NCBI GenBank assembly: GCA_013823625.1
Contig: PNMM01000002.1
Span: 372,001 to 436,000 of the forward strand
DNA from: Microbacterium sp.
GTDB lineage: Bacteria; Actinomycetota; Actinomycetes; Actinomycetales; Microbacteriaceae
Length of the DNA stretch: 64,000 nucleotides
Reading direction: 5' to 3'
Positions 47,801 through 63,755 of this stretch are shown in pieces (the stretch's first letter is position 1; the number at the start of each line of letters is the position of its first letter). A model generated the notes under the pieces. The model worked only from the letters and a program-made list of their open reading frames with translations, was not told where the DNA came from and did no database searches. A program made the translations under genes and the position numbers.

Positions 47801-47829
47801 AGAATAGACCTCGCGCGCGACGCGGTCAA
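47801..47829 (-). promoter_or_regulatory. Predicted str operon promoter
   Basis: TTGACC (47824-47829), a 17-base spacer, TATTCT (47801-47806) on the minus strand. The -35 box overlaps the stop codon of the upstream membrane-protein gene. Initiation is expected near 47794, giving a leader of about 250 bases. Confidence 0.75.
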
Positions 47830-48548
47830 ACGGCGGTTGTGCCGCCCACAGTTGCGCGGTGCTCGGCGAGCTCGCGCTCATAGCTCGCCCGCGCCTCAAC
47901 GTTGCGCGCTCGGGCCGTGCGGCCGCGACGCGAAACGATTCCGCCGACCCAAATGGGCACTTCACGCGCGGCGATCGCGGCGGCGAACCCGAGGGGGTTG
48001 GTGAGCTGCTGCACGACGATGGCAGAGACCTCGGCGGCCGAGCCGCCGACGGCACCCGCCGCGATGATGGCGGCGCCGACGAAGCCGACCCACACCACGA
48101 CGGCGACGATGAATCCGCCCAGAACGTGCGCCCACCATCCGGCGCGGTTCACGATCACGACGAGGAGCAGATAAGCCAAGAAGAACACGATGACCGGAAG
48201 CCAGTAGGCCGGCGCCGAGAGCGACGACACAACCTCTTGCAGCGAAATGCCACGAACGGCGATCGCGATGACGGCCACGAGGGCCGCGTAGACCGCGGCG
48301 AAGACTCCCGTGCTGAACACGGCAACCAGCGCTCCCACCCCGCGCGCTCCGCGCTTCTTCGGCGGCTGCGGAGCGGTGACGAAAACGACCGTCGGCTGAG
48401 CAGACTCGGCCGCAGCGCCCGACGACGCGCTCGCATCTGCTTCGAGGGCCGGGCTTGGCTCAGCGGCCGCCAGGTCGTCGACCGGTTTCTCTGACACGTT
48501 CTCTGATGTCGGTTCGGGAACTGACTCGGGTGCAGATGATGTGGCCAT
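47826..48548 (-). CDS. Hypothetical membrane protein with acidic N-terminus
   Basis: 240 residues from the ATG at 48548 (AAAGGA upstream). Residues 1-65 are acidic and Ser/Ala/Pro-rich, residues 66-72 basic, then three to four transmembrane segments (about 74-100, 115-135, 140-170). A cytoplasmic Arg-rich tail ends with a short helix ([20 protein letters not shown]). I do not recognise the family. It is wedged between the pil locus and the str promoter, and its stop is part of that promoter. Confidence 0.72.
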
Positions 48549-48636
48549 GACGCGTCCTTTCACGGGGAATGCGAACGCGCCACCCTACCAAGGTGCGGTT
48601 TCGGGATGCCCATCGCGGGCATCCCGAAACCACCAC

Positions 48637-49350
48637 CTACGGCGTGGGAGTGGGTGTCGGCGAGCCCGAGTCGGTCGGCACCGGAGTGGGCGTCGGCTCG
48701 GGTTCGGGCTCCGGCTCAGGTTCGGGCGCCGGATTCACCAGGTCGTCACCGCTCACGACATACATGACCATCGAGAACGTGATCGTGCCCGAGCCGTCAC
48801 CGGTTGTCGTGTAGTCGCCACTCGACACAATGGAGAACCGAGGTGATTTCTGCAACGCTTCGATGTAATCCAAAATCGACGACAGCGGCCCGGTGACGGT
48901 CACCGCGACGGGCACGCCCAGCAGTGAACCGGCGGGCAGGATGCCGTCCCCGTCAATCTCGGTTGTGGGAGGCGGTGCGTCCGCTTCGAGCACCAGGGGC
49001 GTAGTCGGGGCCGGCTCGTTGATCTGGATGTTCTGCAGGCCGAGACCGGCCGAGAGCAAGCGGGTCAGTAGCTCCTCGATCGCGTCGTCGTATTGCGCGG
49101 CGGTCGGAAACTCTTCGCGCAAACCTTCGAGTTCAACGAGCAACTCGTCGAGGTTCTCGAAGTCAGACTGCAATTGGGCGATCGCAGCACGCGCGACATC
49201 GTTCTGCGCTTGCACGTTTCGACGTTCAGTTTCGAACCGAGCCGCATCGGCGAGCCGCGGAGAGATGCCCAAGAACCATCCGAGGGCAACCACGGCAATC
49301 ATGATGAGCACCGCGGCGAAGGTCCAGATTCGAGTTGTTGCCGTGGTCAT
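48637..49350 (-). CDS. pilO: PilO-like pilus inner-membrane assembly protein
   Basis: 237 residues. One N-terminal transmembrane helix (about 8-30), a coiled coil (about 32-85: TERRNVQAQNDVARAAIAQL), a ferredoxin-like PilO domain (VAVTVTGPLSSILDYIEALQ), then a 30-residue PEPEP/TPTP tail outside the membrane. PilO pairs with PilN to align the pilus motor. Start overlaps the pilN-like stop by 4 bp. It is the last pil gene. Confidence 0.85.
   Translation of the reverse strand: MTTATTRIWTFAAVLIMIAVVALGWFLGISPRLADAARFETERRNVQAQNDVARAAIAQLQSDFENLDELLVELEGLREEFPTAAQYDDAIEELLTRLLSAGLGLQNIQINEPAPTTPLVLEADAPPPTTEIDGDGILPAGSLLGVPVAVTVTGPLSSILDYIEALQKSPRFSIVSSGDYTTTGDGSGTITFSMVMYVVSGDDLVNPAPEPEPEPEPEPTPTPVPTDSGSPTPTPTP
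48695..48727 (-). repeat. Hexanucleotide repeat encoding the PEPEP tail
   Basis: Five consecutive six-base units (GGCTCG, GGTTCG, GGCTCC, GGCTCA, GGTTCG on the plus strand) encode alternating Pro-Glu near the end of the pilO-like gene. Confidence 0.7.
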
Positions 49351-50018
49351 TCGGTCACCTCATCCACACCAAAGCGCTGCGCGAGAGCCAGGTCATTCAG
49401 GTTGATCGTCACGGCCGTCTTGTAGCCGCTCTCTTGGAAAGTGACCGAATCAATGCTCGCGTCGGCGAAAGTCTCGATCTTCTCCCACGCGCGATACCAC
49501 GTCTGGGGCGTGGGTACCTCGGCAGTCGAGATCACTATGCGAATCGTCGCCGTGCGCGGAGCACGGAGCGGACCGGTCACGCCCAAGGCCGGCTGGGCGG
49601 GCGCATCAGACTGAAACGTGAGCGTATCCACAAGCTCGTCGGCGCTCAATACGGCCAAGTACGGCGTCAACGACTCGCGCCACAAGACCTCAACGGTACC
49701 CAGTTGGGCTCGAACATCCGTGATCGACTGCAGCTGACCGCGCACTTGCGTCACCTCAGCGAACTCCAACTGCGTGACGAGCAATTCTTCGGTGATTCTC
49801 CGCTCAGCAGCGAGCTGTGCTTCAGACGCTGTGGCGATGAAGGTCGACCCGACGATGCCGGCGACGGTCAGCGCAATCACGGCGATGACAGCCGTCACTA
49901 GTCCCCGACGACGCCCGCGCTCTTTCTTCTGCATCGCCACTTCGGGCGGCATGAGGTGCGCGCGCGGCACGCCCCCATAGACGAGCGCCCCGGTCTCGCG
50001 GCCATCTCGACGACTCAT
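49347..50018 (-). CDS. pilN: PilN-like pilus assembly protein
   Basis: 223 residues from the ATG at 50018, overlapping the pilM stop. About 38 cytoplasmic residues precede one transmembrane helix (RRGLVTAVIAVIALTVAGIV), a short coiled coil, and a periplasm-side alpha/beta domain with VPTPQTWYRAWEKIETFADA. The N-terminal segment carries the region that binds PilM in other systems. Divergent sequence; assignment rests on position between pilM and pilO and on topology. Confidence 0.8.
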   Translation of the reverse strand: MSRRDGRETGALVYGGVPRAHLMPPEVAMQKKERGRRRGLVTAVIAVIALTVAGIVGSTFIATASEAQLAAERRITEELLVTQLEFAEVTQVRGQLQSITDVRAQLGTVEVLWRESLTPYLAVLSADELVDTLTFQSDAPAQPALGVTGPLRAPRTATIRIVISTAEVPTPQTWYRAWEKIETFADASIDSVTFQESGYKTAVTINLNDLALAQRFGVDEVTE

Positions 50019-51064
50019 GCTGCGCTCCCGACGGCTAGACCGATCGCGGTGATCCACGTCTGCATTTGCTCATTGCTGTCGTGGCCACGCATCGACCGCG
50101 CGACCGAGACGCCTGCGGTGGGGTTCACCGGAACGACAGAAATGCGCGTCGACTCAGCGAGTGCGCTTGCGAGCCCCCGCAGTCGAGTGGCGCCGCCCGC
50201 TACCGACAAGTGATCGAACGCCACACCCGTGCGCACTCCCGCAAAGTACGCGAGAGTGTTGCGCACGGCCGTGAGCAACTCACTCGTCGACTCGTGAATC
50301 ACCTCCGCGGCAAGTCGCTCTTCATCGGTACTCCCGGCACCCGTCAGCCCCAGGTCGCGCTTGAGGGCTTCAGCCCGCTCGCGCGGCACCGAGAGTCGCG
50401 TCATGATGGCGCGCGTCGCATCGTCACCGCCAGCGGGAACGATGCGCACGAAGAGCGGAACGCCAGCCTGAACGATCACGATCGAGGTCGCGTTTGCCCC
50501 GATATTCATGTGCACCGCGAATCCGCTCGTCGGGCTCGACAGGGTGTGCACGCGGGTCATGGCGAAGGGGAGCAAATCCATGCTCACGGGAGTGAGTCCC
50601 GCAAGAGTCGCCGCCGTGACATTGACGCTCACCGCCTGCTTGAAGGCGGCAACCAACAGCCCATTCACGATGGGCCCCGATTCGTTTTGGCCTTCACCGA
50701 TCGGGTAGTAGTCAAGTACGGCATCACTCACCGGTACGGGGAGTAATTCTTGAACCTGGTACGGAAGCGACTCTTTGATTTGAGCGAGAGGGATGCGCGG
50801 CACGGCGAAGTCGCGCACGATGACGCTCTGCCCGCCGATGCCGAGGGCAACCTCTTTCGAGCGAAAGCCCCCTGCCGACCAGAGCCGCTTGAAGGCCGAC
50901 GCTACGGTGTGCACCTCGAGAATCTCGCCCCGCTTGACCGATCCATCGGGCAGCGGCACTTCATGGGCGCGAAGCAGAGTCGGCCGCGCTTTCGATGCGT
51001 CGTCGATCTCGACGGCGCGCAGAAACGAGCTGCCGATGTCGACACCTACTACTCCGCCAGCCAT
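50015..51064 (-). CDS. pilM: PilM, actin-like pilus assembly ATPase
   Basis: 349 residues. Actin/FtsA fold: phosphate-1 loop GVVGVDIGSSFLRAVEI at the N-terminus, MNIGANATSIVIVQAG as phosphate-2, and VAGGATRLRGLASAL near the C-terminus as adenosine motif. LPYQVQELLPVPVSDAVLDY is the PilM signature. Cytoplasmic ring protein that binds PilN. It starts 10 bp after the prepilin peptidase. Confidence 0.92.
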   Translation of the reverse strand: MAGGVVGVDIGSSFLRAVEIDDASKARPTLLRAHEVPLPDGSVKRGEILEVHTVASAFKRLWSAGGFRSKEVALGIGGQSVIVRDFAVPRIPLAQIKESLPYQVQELLPVPVSDAVLDYYPIGEGQNESGPIVNGLLVAAFKQAVSVNVTAATLAGLTPVSMDLLPFAMTRVHTLSSPTSGFAVHMNIGANATSIVIVQAGVPLFVRIVPAGGDDATRAIMTRLSVPRERAEALKRDLGLTGAGSTDEERLAAEVIHESTSELLTAVRNTLAYFAGVRTGVAFDHLSVAGGATRLRGLASALAESTRISVVPVNPTAGVSVARSMRGHDSNEQMQTWITAIGLAVGSAA

Positions 51065-51074
51065 GTGTTTCTCC

Positions 51075-51902
51075 TCAGTTCAGTCCGAATAGGGCGAGGT
51101 AGCCTCGCGCGATCGGTTCGCCCAGCAGTATGCCTACCCAGGCCCCTCCCAGCATCCACGGCCCGAAGGGTATTCCTGTGTTGCGACTCGCCCGTCGTGC
51201 CACGATCAGCGCAACGCCGACCACGCCGCCCAGAATGAAGGCCGCGAGTGCGCCCACGGCGAGAGCAGCCCAGCCAAACCAGCCCAGCACGAGACCGATA
51301 ACGCCCGCCAGCTTAACGTCGCCCATGCCCATTCCTCGCGGCGAGATGAGGGCGAGGGCGAAATATCCGGCAAACAGGATGCCCGCGCCCGCGGCAGCGC
51401 GAGCCGCCGACTCCAGATCACCCGCCGCAATCGCGGCTGCGGCAAGCAGAGCGGCGAGCACGGGGTAGGCGGGCAAGACGATCGCGTCGGGCAAGCGGTG
51501 CGTGTCGAGGTCGATGGCGGTGAGGGCGATCGAGATCGAGGCGAAGTAGAGCAGGGCCGTGGTGACGAGGAGCACGGCGAGGGCATCCGTCATTGTGGTC
51601 GTCGCCAAGAGAGCCGGCAACTGAATGACCGCAATTGCCGCGAAGGCGAGAGCAGTCGCGAGTTCGATCAGCGGGTAGCGAATGGAGAACGGCGCTGCGC
51701 AATCGCGGCACCGGCCCCGAAGCACGAGCCACGAGACGATCGGAATGTTGTCGTAGGGCCGCACCGGAGCCGCGCACGCCGCACACGCGCTGGGCGGCCG
51801 CACGATCGACACCCCGAGTGGCACACGGTGAATCACCACGTTCAAGAACGAGCCGATGGCGGCGCCAAACACGCCGACGAGCGTCGGCACAACGATGGTC
51901 AC
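51075..51902 (-). CDS. pilD: Prepilin peptidase (A24)
   Basis: 275 residues from the GTG at 51902; no good ribosome site, 11 bp after the upstream gene. N-terminal methylase-type domain with two CxxC pairs (CAACAAP, CRDCAAP) implies zinc and methyltransferase activity. Catalytic aspartates are in LDTHRLPDAI and GMGMGDVKLAG (GxGD). About seven to eight transmembrane helices. It cleaves and methylates the prepilins encoded upstream. Confidence 0.93.
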   Translation of the reverse strand: MTIVVPTLVGVFGAAIGSFLNVVIHRVPLGVSIVRPPSACAACAAPVRPYDNIPIVSWLVLRGRCRDCAAPFSIRYPLIELATALAFAAIAVIQLPALLATTTMTDALAVLLVTTALLYFASISIALTAIDLDTHRLPDAIVLPAYPVLAALLAAAAIAAGDLESAARAAAGAGILFAGYFALALISPRGMGMGDVKLAGVIGLVLGWFGWAALAVGALAAFILGGVVGVALIVARRASRNTGIPFGPWMLGGAWVGILLGEPIARGYLALFGLN

Positions 51903-51913
51903 GCGCGAGCCGG

Positions 51914-53554
51914 TTACGCGGGTGGGTCGATGTCGGTGTATTCGACGAGCGCACCGGGGTGTCCGGGCATGGCCGGCCCGCCAACCGCGCCCTCTCCGCC
52001 GGGGCCGCCTGCGCCATTGCCGAGGTCGAACCCAGGAATACCGATCGGCACGTAGGTGAGCTCGCTGTTGTTGGAGAAGGTCACTCGGCCGCTGTAGTAC
52101 TGACCTCGCCACGCGAGTTGGTTGCTGTTCTGCACGGTGCAGGGGCTGTAGATCAAGATGGCGACGGCATCGATGGTTTCGTTGCGGTTGTTGATGTCGA
52201 AGCGGCCGCACCCGGTCGTCGTCGGTCGATTATCGGCAACCGTGTCGGGCGTGATGAACCGCAGGGCGCGGTCGAAGTTGCCAACAGAGCTCACGGTGAA
52301 GTTCTCGAGGTTGACGGTACGCGGCATGATGAACGTCAAGTCGGTGCGCATCGACATCACGAGGTTGGCGCTTGACGAGAAGACGACTCCGGCCGTGCAT
52401 CCCCGCATGTCGATGACCGTCGGGGTGGTGTACGTGCTGAATGCCGTCACCTGGGCGTTGGTTCTCGTGCGGTTGTCGATCGTGCACGGGCCTGTGTAGG
52501 TGCGCAGAGTCCACCCGAGGGCCGTCCAGTTCGCCGGCACATAGCTGACGTCAATCCATCGGGGTGGGGTGGGCGGGACGACGTCGTTACGGTTGAAGAA
52601 GACGGGGTCGGCGCCGGTCGTGCGCGCGACCGAGCAAGCATCACCCGCAGCATCCCACCCGGTCGCCCCGCTGGTGCAGCGCTGACCCCAGCTGTCAATC
52701 TCACCGCGGGCGTAGACGCCGCCCTCAATACTCGTGCTGGGGTCAATGCGCGTGATGCCCGTTCCGGCCGCGATTACATCGCCGCCGATCGTCTTGTTGC
52801 CTTGAAGCCCGACGGTTCCGGAGGCCCACACATTGCCGCCAGCGCTGCACGTGTTGTCGAGCTGGATGTTGCCATTCGCGGCAACGATGTCGCCTTCGAC
52901 GTAAACGCTGTTGCTGCACAAGATGTTGCCTTCGGCCACGATCACGTTGGCCGAGTTGCCGTTGAACGAGAGCAACTCAAGGCTGTTCGAGAGACCGGGC
53001 GTGCCGTAGCTGAAGACCGCGGCGCCCGTGACGGCCTCGGAGTTCGCTCCGGGCGTCCAGACATACACCGCCTGCACTGCTGACTCATCGCCGGCCGACG
53101 CAGACTCAGCGACACCGGTGTCAGCCGCGAAGCCGGTTGACTGAATGCGAATCTGGGTAGTGGCCCCGTCGGGACAACCGGGTGTCCACGCGGCGCCGGC
53201 GTTGGTGCGGTGCGCAACGTTCGCGATGAAGAAGGGTGCGGCGGCTGCGGTGCCCGTCAAGGTTGGGTCGACGGCGCCCTGTGTCACGGTCAGCTCTCCC
53301 GTGCCCGGGCAGTCGTCGGCGAACAACTCGGCGAGCATCGCATCGACACCCGCTTCGGCAGCGGCGTTCGACTGCACACCCGCACGGGTGAGCGAGGTGT
53401 AGCTCAACGCATCTACGGTGGCGCCGGTAACGGTCATGGTGACCATCGAGGTCACCGCAATCAAGCCGACAACCGCGATCATGGCGTTGCCACGATCGTC
53501 TCGGCTCGCAGCACGGGTGACCCCCGTGGGGCGAACAGCACGTGTCAGAAACAT
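51914..53554 (-). CDS. PilX-like pilus protein with beta-solenoid ectodomain
   Basis: 546 residues. DRGNAMIAVVGLIAVTSMV (about 21-39) is a pilin-like transmembrane stem of the PilX type, lacking the Glu5 of classical pilins. Residues about 185-290 are a run of short turns such as VIVAEGNI, VYVEGDIVAANGNI and VWASGTVGL, a bactofilin or beta-helix pattern. At least ten cysteines suggest disulfides. The C-terminus is Gly/Pro-rich. Length is two to three times that of known PilX. It probably caps or decorates the pilus; adhesin or surface-sensor roles are inferred. It overlaps the upstream gene by 10 bp. Confidence 0.75.
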   Translation of the reverse strand: MFLTRAVRPTGVTRAASRDDRGNAMIAVVGLIAVTSMVTMTVTGATVDALSYTSLTRAGVQSNAAAEAGVDAMLAELFADDCPGTGELTVTQGAVDPTLTGTAAAAPFFIANVAHRTNAGAAWTPGCPDGATTQIRIQSTGFAADTGVAESASAGDESAVQAVYVWTPGANSEAVTGAAVFSYGTPGLSNSLELLSFNGNSANVIVAEGNILCSNSVYVEGDIVAANGNIQLDNTCSAGGNVWASGTVGLQGNKTIGGDVIAAGTGITRIDPSTSIEGGVYARGEIDSWGQRCTSGATGWDAAGDACSVARTTGADPVFFNRNDVVPPTPPRWIDVSYVPANWTALGWTLRTYTGPCTIDNRTRTNAQVTAFSTYTTPTVIDMRGCTAGVVFSSSANLVMSMRTDLTFIMPRTVNLENFTVSSVGNFDRALRFITPDTVADNRPTTTGCGRFDINNRNETIDAVAILIYSPCTVQNSNQLAWRGQYYSGRVTFSNNSELTYVPIGIPGFDLGNGAGGPGGEGAVGGPAMPGHPGALVEYTDIDPPA

Positions 53555-54123
53555 GTCGGACTCACATTCGATTGCGGTGCACGGCCGGTCACGGTCGTGA
53601 TGAAGAGCGAGCTGACTCCTGCTCCCCCGTCAACAGAGAAGCTTACGGCCAGGCCGCGTGTTCCATCCAGGGCGAATACCGGAACGGCGGTGCCCGAGTT
53701 GTCAACGATGGGCGCAACTCCTGAACTAATCGCAGTCCAGTCGGTACTGACCGACCCCGGGGCCGGCGGAACGATTGCGACGGCGCTTGAGCGCTCGAAG
53801 ATCGTGCCAACCTCGTTGTCGTAGAACCACGCCTGGCACCGAGCCGCGCCCCCAGCTGTCGTTCGAGCAACGGCAAAAATGGAGGAGCCGTCGGCGTCAG
53901 GATCGATCGACACAGCGGTTGAGTTGCGAACCGTTTCTTCGATCACGTTCACGACAAGTTGACCGTCAGTGGTCGACCCGGTGACGTCTCGCACCGTGCG
54001 GTCGGCGGTGAGGGCACTCACAATGATGCTGCCGACAACGGTCACGACGACGGCAAAGAGCGACATGGCGACGAGCAACTCTATGAGCGAGAAGCCGCGG
54101 TCATTGACGCCAGGTCGCATCAC
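53545..54123 (-). CDS. Minor pilin, PilW-like
   Basis: 192 residues. Prepilin site NDRG|FSLIELLVAM with Glu at mature position 5, then a hydrophobic stem. The ectodomain has two cysteines (CQAWFYDNEV and the final PTCF) typical of a C-terminal disulfide loop. Start is GTG 54123 or ATG 54120; both overlap the upstream stop. Confidence 0.83.
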   Translation of the reverse strand: MMRPGVNDRGFSLIELLVAMSLFAVVVTVVGSIIVSALTADRTVRDVTGSTTDGQLVVNVIEETVRNSTAVSIDPDADGSSIFAVARTTAGGAARCQAWFYDNEVGTIFERSSAVAIVPPAPGSVSTDWTAISSGVAPIVDNSGTAVPVFALDGTRGLAVSFSVDGGAGVSSLFITTVTGRAPQSNVSPTCF

Positions 54124-54560
54124 GGCGTGCCTGCCAAAAAGATTTGCGTGCGGGCGTCGGCAAGAACCGCCTCGGTGGCGCTATTGATCGCGATGACTGT
54201 GACGGTGATGGCGCTGCCAGCGACACAGTTCGCCGCGGTCGGAACCGTCGTGGTGACCGTGATGGTGACACCTTGCGCGTCGACTTCTTGGGTGGTGGCG
54301 TTGAGAAGCTGGGCTGCGGCGCAATCGGCCGCACCGCGCGAGCGTGCGTCGTCGATCGCCTGAGATACGAGCCTGGTCGCGGTAGCCGAGGTTGAGTTGA
54401 GCTCTGAGGCGCGGAGCGCCGAGACAATGACCGGAATAAAGGCAATGGCGAGAAGAGAAATCAAGAACATCGAGATGACAATCTCGATCAAGCCGATACC
54501 GGCATCGGAAAGCGTGGGGCGCGCGGCATCACGGCGAGAGCGGCTGCGCTCTATCGACAT
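54120..54560 (-). CDS. Minor pilin, PilV-like
   Basis: 146 residues. A long 21-residue basic leader ends LSDAG, cleaved before IGLIEIVISMFLI with Glu5. Short ectodomain with one Cys pair (DCAAAQLL, NCVAGS). First of three minor pilin-like genes; ATG at 54560. Confidence 0.83.
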   Translation of the reverse strand: MSIERSRSRRDAARPTLSDAGIGLIEIVISMFLISLLAIAFIPVIVSALRASELNSTSATATRLVSQAIDDARSRGAADCAAAQLLNATTQEVDAQGVTITVTTTVPTAANCVAGSAITVTVIAINSATEAVLADARTQIFLAGTP

Positions 54561-54620
54561 GATCCCCCCGATCCTTCGTACATGTGAACTTGATGGAGCT
54601 AGTGAAGCGAGTTCTTGCGA

Positions 54621-54667
54621 AAACCGTACAGTGGGGCCGTCTGCTTCGACGACCCCACTGACGGTTT
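54621..54667 (-). terminator. Hairpin after the major pilin gene
   Basis: AAACCG with CGGTTT and CAGTGGGG with CCCCACTG form a two-part stem with a small internal loop; an inner GTC/GAC closes the top. It lies 19 bp past the pilin stop and probably sets pilin above downstream genes in expression. Confidence 0.62.
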
Positions 54668-54686
54668 CAGCGTTACGGACTACCGG

Positions 54687-55103
54687 TTACGGCACGACCG
54701 TGCAAGCCGACGCGGTCGGGCCCGCCGCGCCGCTACCGACGCTAAAGACGGTGCCGCTCGCGCTGGTCGCCTGGAGGCAGAACGTGCGACCACCGTTGAT
54801 GATCGCGACGCTCGCCGGGAAGCCGAGGTCGGTGAGCGCCGTCGGAGCAGCACCTGCGGCAGCAGGTGACGGGCCGTTGGGGCTCGAGACGAGCGAACTC
54901 ACGACAGCGACCTTGGCGGTCGCGAGGTCGGAGATAGCCGCCGAGTTCTGCGCCTGAGCCTGCTGGCCGAGGAAGACCGGCACAGCGATGGCGGCGAGGA
55001 TGCCGATGATGATAACGACCACGAGAAGCTCGATCAGGGTGAAGCCCTTTTCGTTGTTCTGGATGCGGTTGAGGCGGTTCTCAAGAGCGGTGCGAATGGA
55101 CAT
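54687..55103 (-). CDS. pilA: Major type IV pilin, PilA-like
   Basis: 138 residues from the ATG at 55103 (AAAGGAAA upstream). Leader cleavage at G20|F21 in EKGFTLIELLVVVIIIGILA, with Glu at +5, then AIAVPVFLGQQAQAQNSA as the stem. The ectodomain is small (about 75 residues) and Ala/Gly/Ser-rich with one disulfide pair (FCLQ, ACTVVP). It has its own leader and terminator within the locus, consistent with high expression. Confidence 0.95.
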   Translation of the reverse strand: MSIRTALENRLNRIQNNEKGFTLIELLVVVIIIGILAAIAVPVFLGQQAQAQNSAAISDLATAKVAVVSSLVSSPNGPSPAAAGAAPTALTDLGFPASVAIINGGRTFCLQATSASGTVFSVGSGAAGPTASACTVVP

Positions 55104-55200
55104 GTGTCCGTTTCCTTTCCCATCAAATGAAGGTTGATAGGTGGGCCCCCCACGGAACATGAAACCGGCCCCCCACTGGGTAATTCTGTATCCCTGCCCT

Positions 55201-55212
55201 ATGCCATGGCAT
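55201..55212. promoter_or_regulatory. Perfect 12 bp palindrome upstream of the pilin gene
   Basis: ATGCCATGGCAT in the 140 bp gap between the pilC and pilin genes. On the minus strand it covers the -35 zone of a TACAGA box at 55185-55190. Two 10 bp direct repeats (GGCCCCCCAC at 55144 and 55167) lie in the predicted leader. Confidence 0.35.
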
Positions 55213-55243
55213 CCCCATTGCGGGGGGCACCCCGGCGTGTCGT

Positions 55244-56473
55244 CTAGATCTGATTAAAGATGTCGAAGATGGGCAAGTAGAGCGCCACGATCATGCCGCC
55301 GAGAATGACGCCGAGGAAGGCGATCATGAGCGGCTCGATGAGCGAAGTCAAGGCTTCGGTCGTGCTTTGCACTTCGCTGTCATAGAAGTCGGCGATCTTC
55401 TCAAGCATCGTCTCGAGGGCTCCCGAGTCTTCGCCAACGGCGATCATTTGCGTCACCATGCTCGGAAAGATCGGCTGGAGCGCGAGCGGCGCAGCGATCG
55501 TTCGCCCCTGCCGAACAGATTCTTGCACCGCCTGCACCGATTGTTCGATCTGCCAGTTGCCCGAGGTTGAACCCACGATCGAGAGGGCCTGCAAAATCGG
55601 AACGCCCGAGCCGATCATGGTTCCGAAGTTGCGCGTGAAACGAGCGATAGCGATCTTCTTGAAGAGGTCACCAAAGACCGGCATCTTGAGCAAGAGGGGT
55701 TCCCACACCGACCGAAACTTCGGAGTGTGACGATTCGCCCGCCACCAGATGGTGCCCACTATTGCGCCGATCACGACGACCGGCCCGAGCCACACCATGT
55801 TTTGTGAGATGACGACGAGGATGCGCGTCGGAACCGGCAACTCGCCGCCGAGGTCAGCGAACAGGTCTTCGAAGACGGGAACGATAAACAAGATCATGCC
55901 GACGACGGCCAAGAGCGCCATGATCAGCACGACGACGGGATACGTCAAGGCCGACTTGATCGTCGCCTTAAGCTCGACCTCTTTCTCGTAGTTCTTTGCG
56001 ACTGAGTCGAGCGAGGTCTCGAGGAAGCCGCCCACCTCACCGGCACGCACGAGGTTGAGGAAGATCGGTGGAAACTCTCGCGGATGCTTTGCGAGAGCGT
56101 CAGAGAACGTGCTTCCGCCTTCGACGGAACCGCGCACATCATCGAGCGTCGATGCGAGCTTCGGGTTCTCTGACTGATCGGCAAGGATCGTCAGGGCCTT
56201 GAGCAGCGGAAGACCGGCGCCGATCATGGTCGCGAGCTGCCGGCTCATGACCGAAAGATCTTTGATCGAGACCTTCTTGTCGAAGATTCCACCGAGGGAG
56301 AGATCGCGGTTGAGTCCGGTTCCAGAGGCGACTTGCTTGATCGAGACGGGGGCAATGCCCATCGTGCGCAAGCGCGCGACGACGGACGACTCGCCTGCAG
56401 CATCCACCCGCCCCTTGACGAGCTTGCCGCTCGAGTCGCGGCCCGTGTATTCGAACGTGAGCGTGGCAGCCAC
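55244..56473 (-). CDS. pilC: PilC, platform protein of the pilus motor
   Basis: 409 residues. Two T2SSF domains (about 70-195 and 272-395) with three transmembrane helices; ISRQLATMIGAGLPLLKAL-like first block, FTRNFGTMIGSGVPILQALS second block, and ending IVALYLPIFDIFNQI. GTG start sharing one base with the pilT stop (TAGTG). It links PilB/PilT rotation to pilin movement. Confidence 0.95.
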   Translation of the reverse strand: MAATLTFEYTGRDSSGKLVKGRVDAAGESSVVARLRTMGIAPVSIKQVASGTGLNRDLSLGGIFDKKVSIKDLSVMSRQLATMIGAGLPLLKALTILADQSENPKLASTLDDVRGSVEGGSTFSDALAKHPREFPPIFLNLVRAGEVGGFLETSLDSVAKNYEKEVELKATIKSALTYPVVVLIMALLAVVGMILFIVPVFEDLFADLGGELPVPTRILVVISQNMVWLGPVVVIGAIVGTIWWRANRHTPKFRSVWEPLLLKMPVFGDLFKKIAIARFTRNFGTMIGSGVPILQALSIVGSTSGNWQIEQSVQAVQESVRQGRTIAAPLALQPIFPSMVTQMIAVGEDSGALETMLEKIADFYDSEVQSTTEALTSLIEPLMIAFLGVILGGMIVALYLPIFDIFNQI

Positions 56474-57918
56474 TATCGGGTTCCTCCGAATCCGTCAGCG
56501 AAGGGCGTTGGAGCTGCGCCTGCGGGCGCTCCAGTGCGGTGGACCAAACGATTGAAGTTCTCGGGTTCTTGCATTTTCGATTGGGCGGCTTCGTACGTCA
56601 CCATGTGGCTATTCACGAGGTCGGCAAGGTGTTGGTCCATTGTGTGCATGCCAGCCTCGCGCCCGGCCTGTAGGGCCGAAGGGATCTGGTAGGTCTTTCC
56701 TTCGCGGATCAGGTTGGCAATGGCCCCGGTGGTCATCATGATCTCGGTCGCAATGATTCGACCTTGGCCTGACGCGCGGGGCAACAGGGTTTGGCACACG
56801 ACACCCTGGAGGGTGAGCGCAAGCTGTGAGCGCACTTGGCTCTGCTGGTGCGGCGGAAAGACATCGATGATGCGGTCGATTGTTTGTGCCGCGGACTGCG
56901 TGTGAAGCGTCGCAAACACAAGGTGACCGGTCTCGGCTGCGGTCAACGCGGTAGAGATCGTTTCGAGGTCACGAAGCTCGCCAATGAGGATGACGTCAGG
57001 GTCTTGACGCAACACCCGTCGGAGCGCGTCGGCGAACGAGTGCGTGTCGCTGCCCACCTCGCGTTGATTGACGAGCGCTCGCTGGTTGTGGTGCACGAAC
57101 TCGATCGGGTCTTCAATCGTGACGATGTGATCGGCGCGAGACTTGTTGACGAGGTCGATCAAGGCCGCGAGGGTCGTCGACTTTCCTGAACCGGTTGGCC
57201 CCGTCACGAGCACAAGCCCGCGCGGCAGCGTGGCGAATTGGGCGACCACGCTGGGCACACCCAACTGCTTGAGCGACTTGATCTCCGTAGGAATAAGGCG
57301 GAACGCTCCGGCCATCGCCTCGCGGTCTTTGAAGATGTTGACCCGGAAGCGGTCACCACCCCGGGGGCTGATCGCGATGTCGAGCTCCCACTCAGAGAGA
57401 AAGTTCTCGCGCTGGTGCGCCGTCATGATGCTCTGAAGGATCGCCGTGACCTCAGCGCGGCTCCACACCGTGGAGTTCGCGGCCGGTCGCAACTCGCCGT
57501 CTAGGCGAATCATGGGAGGGGCATCCCCCGCCACATGGAGGTCAGACGCCCCGCGAGCGACCACGTCATCGAGAGCTGCGAGCAGAGCCGGGTGGATTCC
57601 GGCCATGACGCCTCCTGCGACCGGGGGAGGCGGCGGTGCAAGAACCGGGACCAGACCGGCGGGCGGCGCTCCGGGCTCTGGCGCCGCGATCGGCTGCTGG
57701 CCGACCGGAGGGGGTGGACTGAGGTGCGCCATCTCGGCCGAGAAGTCGGGAAGCGACGCAGAGGGGCTCGGAAGAGGTGGCACCGCCATCGGCGACGAGA
57801 GCGAGGCAGCGTTCGCGGCCGCAACGGCTGAACTCTCGTCGGCGGTCACCGACCAAACACGGCGCGTGCTCGGGCTAGCGCCGTCGGCCGGCAATCCGAG
57901 TCCTAGCGAGTCGGTCAT
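56473..57918 (-). CDS. pilT: PilT, retraction ATPase with Pro-rich extension
   Basis: 481 residues from the ATG at 57918 (GAGGGG upstream). Residues 1-125 are Ser/Ala then Pro-rich and disordered; the PilT core follows (SDLHVAGDAPPMIRLDGELR). Walker A GPTGSGKSTT, Asp box IVTIEDPIEF, Walker B DPDVILIGELRD, His box and the PilT-specific AIANLIREGKTYQIPSALQ are intact. Typical PilT is about 345 residues. Presence implies retractable pili. Confidence 0.94.
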   Translation of the reverse strand: MTDSLGLGLPADGASPSTRRVWSVTADESSAVAAANAASLSSPMAVPPLPSPSASLPDFSAEMAHLSPPPPVGQQPIAAPEPGAPPAGLVPVLAPPPPPVAGGVMAGIHPALLAALDDVVARGASDLHVAGDAPPMIRLDGELRPAANSTVWSRAEVTAILQSIMTAHQRENFLSEWELDIAISPRGGDRFRVNIFKDREAMAGAFRLIPTEIKSLKQLGVPSVVAQFATLPRGLVLVTGPTGSGKSTTLAALIDLVNKSRADHIVTIEDPIEFVHHNQRALVNQREVGSDTHSFADALRRVLRQDPDVILIGELRDLETISTALTAAETGHLVFATLHTQSAAQTIDRIIDVFPPHQQSQVRSQLALTLQGVVCQTLLPRASGQGRIIATEIMMTTGAIANLIREGKTYQIPSALQAGREAGMHTMDQHLADLVNSHMVTYEAAQSKMQEPENFNRLVHRTGAPAGAAPTPFADGFGGTR

Positions 57919-58027
57919 GGTGTTCCCCTCGTTGTTGCGTGGTGCGAGTGCGATGCCCGGAGGCCCTGCCATGCGATTGTTGCGCGGCCTCGCCCCGTGA
58001 CGGCGCCGCGACAGTTGCCGCGTGTCG

Positions 58028-59692
58028 TCAGGCAACCACGCGAAGAACCTCTTCGATCGACGTCAGACCCGCACGTACCTTTGCCCAGCCGTCTTGCCGC
58101 AGAGTCAGCATGCCCTGTGCCGTGGCGGTGTGCATAATCTCAACGCTCGATGCCCGCGAGACCGCGAGCCGTTCGATCTCTTCGCTCACCATCATGACCT
58201 CGTGCAAGGCCAAGCGGCCGCGGTAACCGGTGCCCGAACACGCCGAGCACCCGACCGCGTGATAGAACCGCGGGCTGAACTCGTCTTCACGTCGGCCAAA
58301 GCCCAAGTGATCGAGATGCGTCATGTCGTACTCCTGCAACTGCTTGCAGCGGTCGCAGAGTTTGCGGGCGAGACGCTGGGCGACCACGCAGTCGAGAGCA
58401 GAGCCCACGAGGAACGGCTCGATATCCATCTCGATGAGTCGAGTGATCGCACTGGGTGCATCGTTCGTGTGCAGGGTCGACAGCACGAGGTGACCCGTCA
58501 GCGAGGCCTCGATGGCAATCTGAGCAGTCTCTTGGTCTCGAATCTCACCAATGAGCACAACGTCAGGGTCAGAACGAAGGATGCTGCGCAGCGCGCTGGC
58601 GAAGGTCAAGCCCGCCTTCGGGTTGACCTGCACCTGGTTGATGCCGACCATGCGGTATTCGACCGGGTCTTCAACCGTGATGACGTTGATCTCGGGTCGG
58701 GCGACCGCGTGCAAGGTCGTGTAGAGCGTCGTCGACTTACCAGAGCCGGTCGGCCCGGTGACGAGAATCATGCCGTAGGGCTTGGTGTACGAGTTGCGGT
58801 AGACCGTCAGGTTGCGGTCGAGCATGCCGAGGTCGCCAATGTCGCGACGCGTCGCATTGTTGTCGAGAATACGCATGACGACTTTTTCGCCCCACACGGT
58901 CGGCAGGGTGGCCACGCGCAAGTCGATCACTTCGCCGCCGTGCTGCACCGACATGCGGCCGTCTTGCGGGCGACGCCGCTCAGCGATGTTGATGTCGCTC
59001 ATGATCTTCAGTCGCGAGATCACGCCGTTCTGGATGTTCTTGGGGGCCTGCTGCACATCGTGCAATACGCCGTCGATGCGGTATCGCACACGCATCTCAA
59101 ACTCACCCGGTTCGATGTGAATGTCAGATGCAAGGTCTTGAATCGCCTGGCCGATGATGAGGTTGACGAAGCGAACGATCGGCGCATCGTCGGCATCGGC
59201 TTCGCGCAGGGCCAGTTCGTCGACCTTGCTCGGCGCCGACTCTTCTTGAATCGCGGTCGAGAGGTCGCTCAGCTCATTGTCGGCGCGGTGCAAGCGATTA
59301 ATGGCTGCAGTGAGGTCATTGCGCTCGGCGACAACGGCGACGACGTGCATGCGCGTGAGGGCGCGCACGTCGTCCATGGCCAGAACGTCGCCCGGTTCGA
59401 CCATGGCAAGCGTGATGGTCGTCGGCGTGGCATGGATGGGCAGGATGTTGTGGCGCCGGCACAGCTGCGCCGGAACGAGCGCCACCGCAGTGCGGTCGAC
59501 CGGGTACTCGGCTAGCTCGACGAAAGAGAGCCCAGCGACCTCAGCCTTGGCCGACGCAACCTGGGAGGGAGTGACGAGTCCGCGCTCGACAAAGTCGCCG
59601 ACGACGACCTCGTCGCCTTCTTCACGAAGCTTGTCGAGAGTCTCGATCGGCAGCAGCCCACGAATGATGAGCACTTCACTGACGGAAACCAC
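58028..59692 (-). CDS. pilB: PilB, pilus extension ATPase
   Basis: 554 residues from the GTG at 59692, after GGGAGGG. N-terminal T2SSE_N domain (about 1-150), catalytic ATPase with Walker A GPTGSGKSTT, Walker B DPDVVLIGEIRD and His box LSTLHTNDAP, and the C-terminal zinc site CDRCKQ...CSACSG that marks extension ATPases. First gene of the locus. A 109 bp gap to pilT holds no gene. Confidence 0.95.
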   Translation of the reverse strand: MVSVSEVLIIRGLLPIETLDKLREEGDEVVVGDFVERGLVTPSQVASAKAEVAGLSFVELAEYPVDRTAVALVPAQLCRRHNILPIHATPTTITLAMVEPGDVLAMDDVRALTRMHVVAVVAERNDLTAAINRLHRADNELSDLSTAIQEESAPSKVDELALREADADDAPIVRFVNLIIGQAIQDLASDIHIEPGEFEMRVRYRIDGVLHDVQQAPKNIQNGVISRLKIMSDINIAERRRPQDGRMSVQHGGEVIDLRVATLPTVWGEKVVMRILDNNATRRDIGDLGMLDRNLTVYRNSYTKPYGMILVTGPTGSGKSTTLYTTLHAVARPEINVITVEDPVEYRMVGINQVQVNPKAGLTFASALRSILRSDPDVVLIGEIRDQETAQIAIEASLTGHLVLSTLHTNDAPSAITRLIEMDIEPFLVGSALDCVVAQRLARKLCDRCKQLQEYDMTHLDHLGFGRREDEFSPRFYHAVGCSACSGTGYRGRLALHEVMMVSEEIERLAVSRASSVEIMHTATAQGMLTLRQDGWAKVRAGLTSIEEVLRVVA

Positions 59693-59813: not shown

Positions 59814-59853
59814 CACCAGTCACACTGTTAACACTCGCCCCAGAACGGCGACA

Positions 59854-59881
59854 GGGCCCTCACCGTGAGTGGTGTGGGCCC
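59854..59881 (-). terminator. Terminator of rpoBC
   Basis: GGGCCC-T-CACC and GGTG-T-GGGCCC form a 10 bp stem with one T-T mismatch around GTGAGT, 26 bp past the rpoC stop. It should insulate the pil genes from rpoBC transcription. Confidence 0.6.
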
Positions 59882-59906
59882 CGCCGTCGTGTGACGTGAC
59901 GCGTGA

Positions 59907-63755
<3,849 letters not shown>

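Follow-up and report, generated by a model that had tools for sequence, protein, structure and literature searches.

The 64,000-nucleotide stretch of actinobacterial DNA analyzed here (the window) carries, at positions 48637-59692, a pil locus that most likely encodes a complete retractile type IVa pilus (T4aP) of the monoderm kind, with a predicted beta-solenoid pilin, PilX, at its tip (probability about 0.8). Its 11 genes are intact, with open frames, and all lie on the minus strand. From the rpoC side they run pilB-pilT-pilC-pilA-pilV-pilW-pilX-pilD-pilM-pilN-pilO, followed by a membrane-protein gene. The locus is flanked by rpoC (59907-63755) on one side and by rpsL-rpsG-fusA on the other, both identified by profile search. 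A preliminary description, made from the sequence alone, had named PilB, PilT, PilC, pilins, PilD, PilM, PilN, and PilO and placed them between rpoC and rpsL; profile and fold searches bore out both the genes and the position. The names pilV, pilW, and pilX are our own, given by position and weak matches.

Components of the pilus machine

The locus combines a PilB-type ATPase, PilT, a single platform protein with two T2SSF stretches, PilM with PilN and PilO, and class III prepilins with the peptidase PilD. PilB contains T2SSE (453.9 bits) and MshEN domains and is 92% identical to its counterpart in a relative (L092) over 552 codons. Its Walker A, Walker B, His box, and two CxxC motifs are all present. 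PilT matches TIGR01420 with 468 bits, above the cut-off of 319, and has the AIANLIRE motif. Its core is preceded by a Pro/Ala-rich N-terminal extension. Ahead of the core motif, 62 of 64 relatives have 75 to 172 residues and two have 46 (a 65th, lacking the motif, was left out), although these lengths are biased towards the window's because the relatives' starts were picked nearest to its own. PilC matches T2SSF with 217 bits, PilM matches TIGR01175 with 160 bits (cut-off 133), and PilD has A24_N and A24 domains with CxxC pairs. Two pilins match N_methyl above the cut-off, and one matches PilV weakly, under it.

The identities of PilN and PilO took more work. As a single sequence PilN matches no family; even its profile finds no Protein Data Bank (PDB) match, and none of 38 members matches the Pfam PilN family. 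A profile-profile comparison ties it to PilN of the phylum (99.3%, E 3.2e-20), a set in which 12 of 20 match PF05137. The single PilO sequence gives only E=0.009, under the cut-off, and was later secured by profile and fold, though the fold-match rows (VIA) of PilO and PilX leave other folds possible. A Pro-rich C-terminal tail is found in 20 of 77 PilO relatives, compared to none of 80 PilM and none of 70 PilC proteins. A wall-spanning role for this tail is speculation, in line with Pelicic's suggestion for monoderm PilO (PMC6916266).

The genome has no match to the secretin family PF00263, for which the control was positive in 6 of 14 genomes, in support of the preliminary description, which saw no PilQ. 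That PilM, PilN, and PilO are kept without PilP and PilQ had been put forward as noteworthy. It is not odd, since the T4aP of Streptococcus sanguinis likewise require PilM, PilN, and PilO and have no PilP or PilQ (PMC6916266). A search for PilY1 was uninformative, as its controls gave no match.

The large pilin predicted at the tip

PilX is a 546-residue minor pilin with a prepilin-like start that lacks Glu5. Neither Pfam nor NCBIfam gives a match for it at E<=0.01. Among its 27 aligned family members, none matches a Pfam pilin family, while eight match Bactofilin and one matches DUF7305. Seven cysteine columns are conserved in at least 26 of the 27 rows. The AlphaFold model (mean predicted local distance difference test, pLDDT, 79) has a long helix at its N terminus, a head, a beta-solenoid, and a last strand; the N terminus and some loops score below 50. 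The closest PDB fold is ComZ of Thermus thermophilus (6qvi), a competence pilin whose pilin sheet carries an inserted solenoid; it has been shown to bind DNA and argued to sit at the tip (PMC6561018). The predicted PilX fold likewise has a pilin frame with an inserted beta-solenoid. Within about 2 Z units of it come ice-binding proteins, tapirins, and what may be an adhesin domain. The preliminary description had recognized the protein as minor-pilin-like and missed the ComZ-like solenoid.

Several findings weigh against this reading of the machine and its tip. The best NCBIfam match of PilB, the PilB model TIGR02538, scores 624 bits, under its curated cut-off of 676 (the GspE model, with 581 bits, is likewise under its cut-off of 630), and the PilC/GspF matches of PilC are under the curated equivalog cut-offs. 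The whole-model template modeling (TM) score of PilX against ComZ is low, at 0.27, and the root-mean-square deviation is high, at 17.8 Å over 332 residues, so how the PilX domains are placed relative to one another is not established. The PilX sequence profile does not match ComZ and weakly matches Bactofilin A (E 0.0074), which means that the modeled likeness to ComZ is one of fold only. The PilX ectodomain of the window is acidic, with a net charge of -18 and one Lys.

The ectodomain is net negative in 24 of the 27 rows, among them that of the window. A ComZ-type tip pilin would bind DNA through lysines lying between its domains. In the PilX alignment, column 136 holds Lys or Arg in all 27 rows, and column 540 holds Arg in 23 of 27 and Thr in the window, positions that may or may not correspond to the ComZ lysines.

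How widely this pilin occurs was followed in a set of named loci, the best 80 of 236 PilM matches, a sample biased towards relatives. The PilX family profile matches 56 of the 80, and in 49 of the 72 with both pilW and pilD placed, the match lies between these two genes. In 22 of the other 23 slots there is an open frame of at least 1.6 kb, several with a similar hydrophobic start, but some may be spurious, as reading went from stop to stop in DNA rich in GC. Of 245 other genomes of the phylum, outside the family, five have a near full-length match (G360, G382, G436, G334, and G371), and G522 has a truncated one; in G382, G371, and G522 the match shares a contig with pilM and lies just upstream of that gene. 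In all, 43 genomes match the profile (the window's own genome included), the remaining 36 only partly.

Proposed assembly and possible function

We infer assembly, retraction, tip position, and ligand as follows. Prepilins would be processed by PilD, after which PilV, PilW, and the large PilX-like pilin would most likely form an I-J-K type tip complex that initiates assembly; a review describes minor-pilin tip complexes as capped by a subunit without Glu5 (PMC10191384). The PilX beta-solenoid would then stand at the tip as a ligand receptor. PilB would drive PilC, adding PilA at the base, which a PilM-PilN-PilO ring would hold, and PilT would reverse assembly. The filament would pass the cell wall without a secretin.

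The genome was searched for comEA and comEC, as had been proposed, and both were found. They are adjacent (L198:2477-5571, comEA with SLBB and HHH domains) and lie beside a DNA polymerase III delta-like gene. As the most specific ligand, DNA handed to ComEA-ComEC is favored, with somewhat less than an even chance and with a surface polysaccharide close behind; the acidity of the tip counts against DNA. ComEC, however, is found in 293 of 299 family genomes, whether a T4aP is present or absent. Co-occurrence with ComEC thus failed as a test of DNA uptake and says little on any link to the T4aP. DNA capture and surface adhesion are both plausible and are rated about equal. The leading rival explanation is that the same machine serves adhesion and twitching on polysaccharide surfaces rather than DNA uptake, with the PilX solenoid as a carbohydrate-binding tip as in tapirins and with Tad-type pili or none for DNA uptake. 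The tapirins among the fold matches speak for it and the closer match to ComZ speaks for DNA; its chances are nearly even.

A wider proposal is that a retractile T4aP is widespread in Actinobacteria and that a large, exchangeable pilin forms its tip, with a ComZ-like solenoid as receptor in Microcella, in many genera related to it, and in some members of further classes, and with other modules elsewhere. Such a tip would pass DNA to ComEA-ComEC, so that transformation would run via the T4aP and not via Tad or Com pili, and PilM-PilN-PilO with the disordered PilO tail would be the only wall-crossing apparatus. Taken as a whole, this proposal is rather unlikely.

Two further loci in the genome (L199 and L200) encode T2SSF proteins and an ATPase with TadA as the best NCBIfam match, the fragments scoring 260 and 290 bits, under the cut-off of 373. 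The search for A24 prepilin peptidases found just one in the genome, PilD (G000:C2:423213-423548), so it may mature both kinds of pilin and serve the two TadA-type loci as well. Thirteen of 20 T4aP-bearing genomes have a single A24 match, at the pil locus, while 21 of 23 genomes without pil genes still hold at least one.

Which type of system

From its gene content, the locus is a T4aP and not a Tad system, type II secretion system (T2SS), or Com pilus. Tad, the T4cP class, was rejected because PilB and PilT score only 43 and 52 bits on TIGR03819 (cut-off 373). A T2SS was rejected because no secretin was found in the genome. The presence of PilT, PilM, PilN, and PilO ruled out a Com pilus, which in monoderms consists of core components only, without PilMNO and PilT (PMC10191384, PMC6668835). 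The genes could also be thought to build a short T2SS-like pseudopilus serving protein secretion, as the PilB and GspE profile scores are close (624 vs 581 bits) and the pilin domain of ComZ resembles GspK (PMC6561018). However, PilT is above its cut-off with AIANLIRE, PilM, PilN, and PilO are separate proteins, and no secretin was found in the genome, which leaves the pseudopilus with a very small chance.

Distribution and inheritance

The window comes from a 2.45-Mb genome in four contigs that appears to stand in or beside Microcella of the Microbacteriaceae; its PilM is 100% identical to that of an Actinomycetota metagenome-assembled genome (MAG), 87% to a Microcella MAG, and 76% to Microcella pacifica. 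PilM (PF11104) is found in 145 of 299 family genomes (51 of 85 genera), 79 of 345 class genomes, and 240 of 396 phylum genomes, as well as in all six sampled genomes of the genus. Since related genes are common in the family, mostly in the same place, the locus encodes a little-studied machine that is not odd to one genome, and the idea of an unusual insertion was not borne out. By these counts it is a trait of the family, with the interval between rpoC and rpsL as the preferred site. One or both of rpoC and rpsL are present in 14 of 20 PilM stretches (19 from the family, one from a different family in the order). Among the 63 named loci with full flanks, rpsL lies downstream in 44 and rpoC was observed in 14, although only 10 kb upstream of pilM was covered, often too short to reach it. 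The site is not universal, as six of the 20 stretches have neither gene and 19 of the 63 loci have no rpsL. The core set is nearly constant in these 63 loci: pilB in 62, pilT in 62, pilC in 61, pilA in 62, pilD in 60, pilN in 63, and pilO in 63.

That the locus was recently inserted at this site by horizontal transfer could account for the patchiness of PilM in family and class, and in 2 of 20 genomes without pil genes only 176 and 180 bp separate rpoC and rpsL. This explanation is already disfavored and very improbable. The site is the same across many genera, and all six sampled members of the genus carry the genes. Distances of pilC and pilM also track those of fusA+rpsG (r 0.69 and 0.56, n=39; 0 of 2000 permutations as high), which fits inheritance; pilN and pilO did not enter this comparison, as their rows were missing. 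In the pil-less set (23 genomes searched, 20 with the rpoC/rpsL region examined), both genes are in reach in 10 of 20, 176 to 6467 bp apart, with no pil genes between them apart from one A24 peptidase of 161 residues, a gene that also argues against insertion. Loss of the locus in lineages without it is likely.

That short peptidase gene (L182:7643-8128) is 38% identical to PilD over 124 residues and is possibly a remnant after locus loss. In a family member with a very small genome of 1.4 Mb (G092, L071), the pil locus is kept with neither rpoC nor rpsL in 20 kb; the one genus mate examined (G010, L187) lacks a PilM match, and its rpoC and rpsL stand 180 bp apart. Several PilM matches lie on one contig in G078 (C10) and G193 (C11), perhaps marking several type IV pilus loci.

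The pil genes appear to be under purifying selection in pairwise comparison. Against the relative L092, all 11 genes have a ratio of nonsynonymous to synonymous substitution rates (dN/dS) below 0.4: about 0.06 for pilB, 0.07 for pilC, and 0.11 for pilT and pilM, 0.2-0.25 for pilA, pilX, and pilD, and 0.3-0.4 for pilN, pilO, pilV, and pilW, rough figures because dS is near saturation. Against L093, ten genes range from about 0.12 (pilC) to 0.44 (pilA); the pilB comparison (nine codons, wrong start) was unusable. A decaying relic is extremely improbable, as no supporting point was found and the open frames, intact motifs, and low ratios of PilB, PilC, PilT, and PilM speak against it; the frames of the motor genes are among the open ones.

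Comparison with known pili

The closest known machine is the T4aP of S. sanguinis, which has the same parts: three minor pilins among its pilins, PilD, a platform, an extension ATPase, PilT, and PilM-PilN-PilO without PilP or PilQ (PMC6916266). It differs in its PilO, 56.6 kDa compared to the short, 237-residue PilO with a Pro-rich tail here, and in its large minor pilins, which bear vWA or lectin modules (PMC8179133) where PilX has a predicted solenoid. ComZ shares with PilX the pilin frame and large beta-solenoid, and a GspI-like pilin is encoded alongside it (PMC6561018), as a neighbor matching GspI weakly is here. The closest fold of the ComZ solenoid is the ice-binding FfIBP (PMC6561018), which is among the closest for PilX too. 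PilX differs in having no sequence match to ComZ, a monoderm host, and an acidic, Lys-poor ectodomain, and in that its DNA binding is putative.

The Tad/Flp pili of Micrococcus luteus and Bifidobacterium breve are also type IV filaments of actinobacteria, and that of Micrococcus serves transformation (PMC6916266). They differ in their TadA-type ATPase, small Flp pilin, and lack of PilMNO; the two loci with such ATPases lie elsewhere in this genome. The view that classical retractile type IV pili are little described in the phylum holds for experiments, which as described concern Tad pili only (PMC6916266), and not for genome surveys. Denise et al. (2019) had already detected the T4aP class in Actinobacteria, with no Microbacteriaceae, site, or tip pilin named in the available text of that survey (PMC6668835). 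Titles and abstracts yielded no experimental T4aP in Microbacteriaceae and no ComZ-like pilin in Actinobacteria; PMC10973392 concerns Saccharibacteria.

The machine is thus of a known kind, and an unstudied host group with a changing, partly ComZ-like tip makes it a variant worth testing. Named-locus genera with isolates (such as Cryobacterium, Salinibacterium, and Microcella) make T4aP twitching or DNA uptake in a high-GC Gram-positive directly testable. The same isolates would allow a test of how, with no secretin, a pilus gets through a thick wall and of the role of PilM-PilN-PilO by themselves. If the tip pilin does change, it would show how one machine gets retargeted.

Layout of the locus and its flanks

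Table 1. Features of the pil locus and its surroundings, in window positions.
Feature	Position	Strand	Basis
Inverted repeat after rpoC	59845..59890	.	20-nt arms, 80% complementary
pilB, extension ATPase (MshEN + T2SSE)	58028..59692	-	family profiles, motifs
pilT, retraction ATPase, long N-terminal extension ahead of PilT core	56473..57918	-	TIGR01420 above cut-off, AIANLIRE
pilC, platform protein	55244..56473	-	two T2SSF stretches in one gene
pilA, probable major pilin, leader cleaved before FTLIEL	54687..55103	-	N_methyl E 6.6e-10
Inverted repeat between pilA and pilV, possible attenuator	54629..54660	.	13-nt arms, 92%; function inferred
pilV-like minor pilin with Glu5	54120..54560	-	weak PilV and ComGE matches, under cut-off
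pilW-like minor pilin with Glu5	53545..54123	-	N_methyl; weak GspI and GspJ matches, under cut-off
pilX-like large minor pilin without Glu5, predicted ComZ-like beta-solenoid	51914..53554	-	predicted fold
pilD, prepilin peptidase	51075..51902	-	A24_N + A24
pilM	50015..51064	-	TIGR01175 above cut-off
pilN, LMPPE motif near N terminus	49347..50018	-	profile-profile match
pilO, Pro/Glu/Thr-rich C-terminal tail	48637..49350	-	profile and fold
Flanking membrane-protein gene	47826..48563	-	relatives upstream of rpsL in pil-less genomes

The starts of pilB (59692), pilT (57918), pilA (55103), pilD (51902), and pilN (50018) are the likely ones from the sequence and relatives. Several adjacent genes, such as pilM-pilN and pilN-pilO, share a few bases, which fits the expectation for one transcription unit. 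The inverted repeat between pilA and pilV could allow excess production of the major pilin. At the other end, the hairpin said to bound the locus after rpoC exists as an inverted repeat but was not listed by the terminator consensus scan. That scan gave six promoter-like sites (1.7 expected) and six terminator-like sites (8.1 expected), counts on which no claim is built. The flanking membrane-protein gene matches nothing in Pfam or NCBIfam. Ten of the 20 pil-less genomes have a relative of it upstream of rpsL, on the opposite strand in two of those 10, so from its occurrence near rpsL even without pil genes, it is probably not part of the pilus system.
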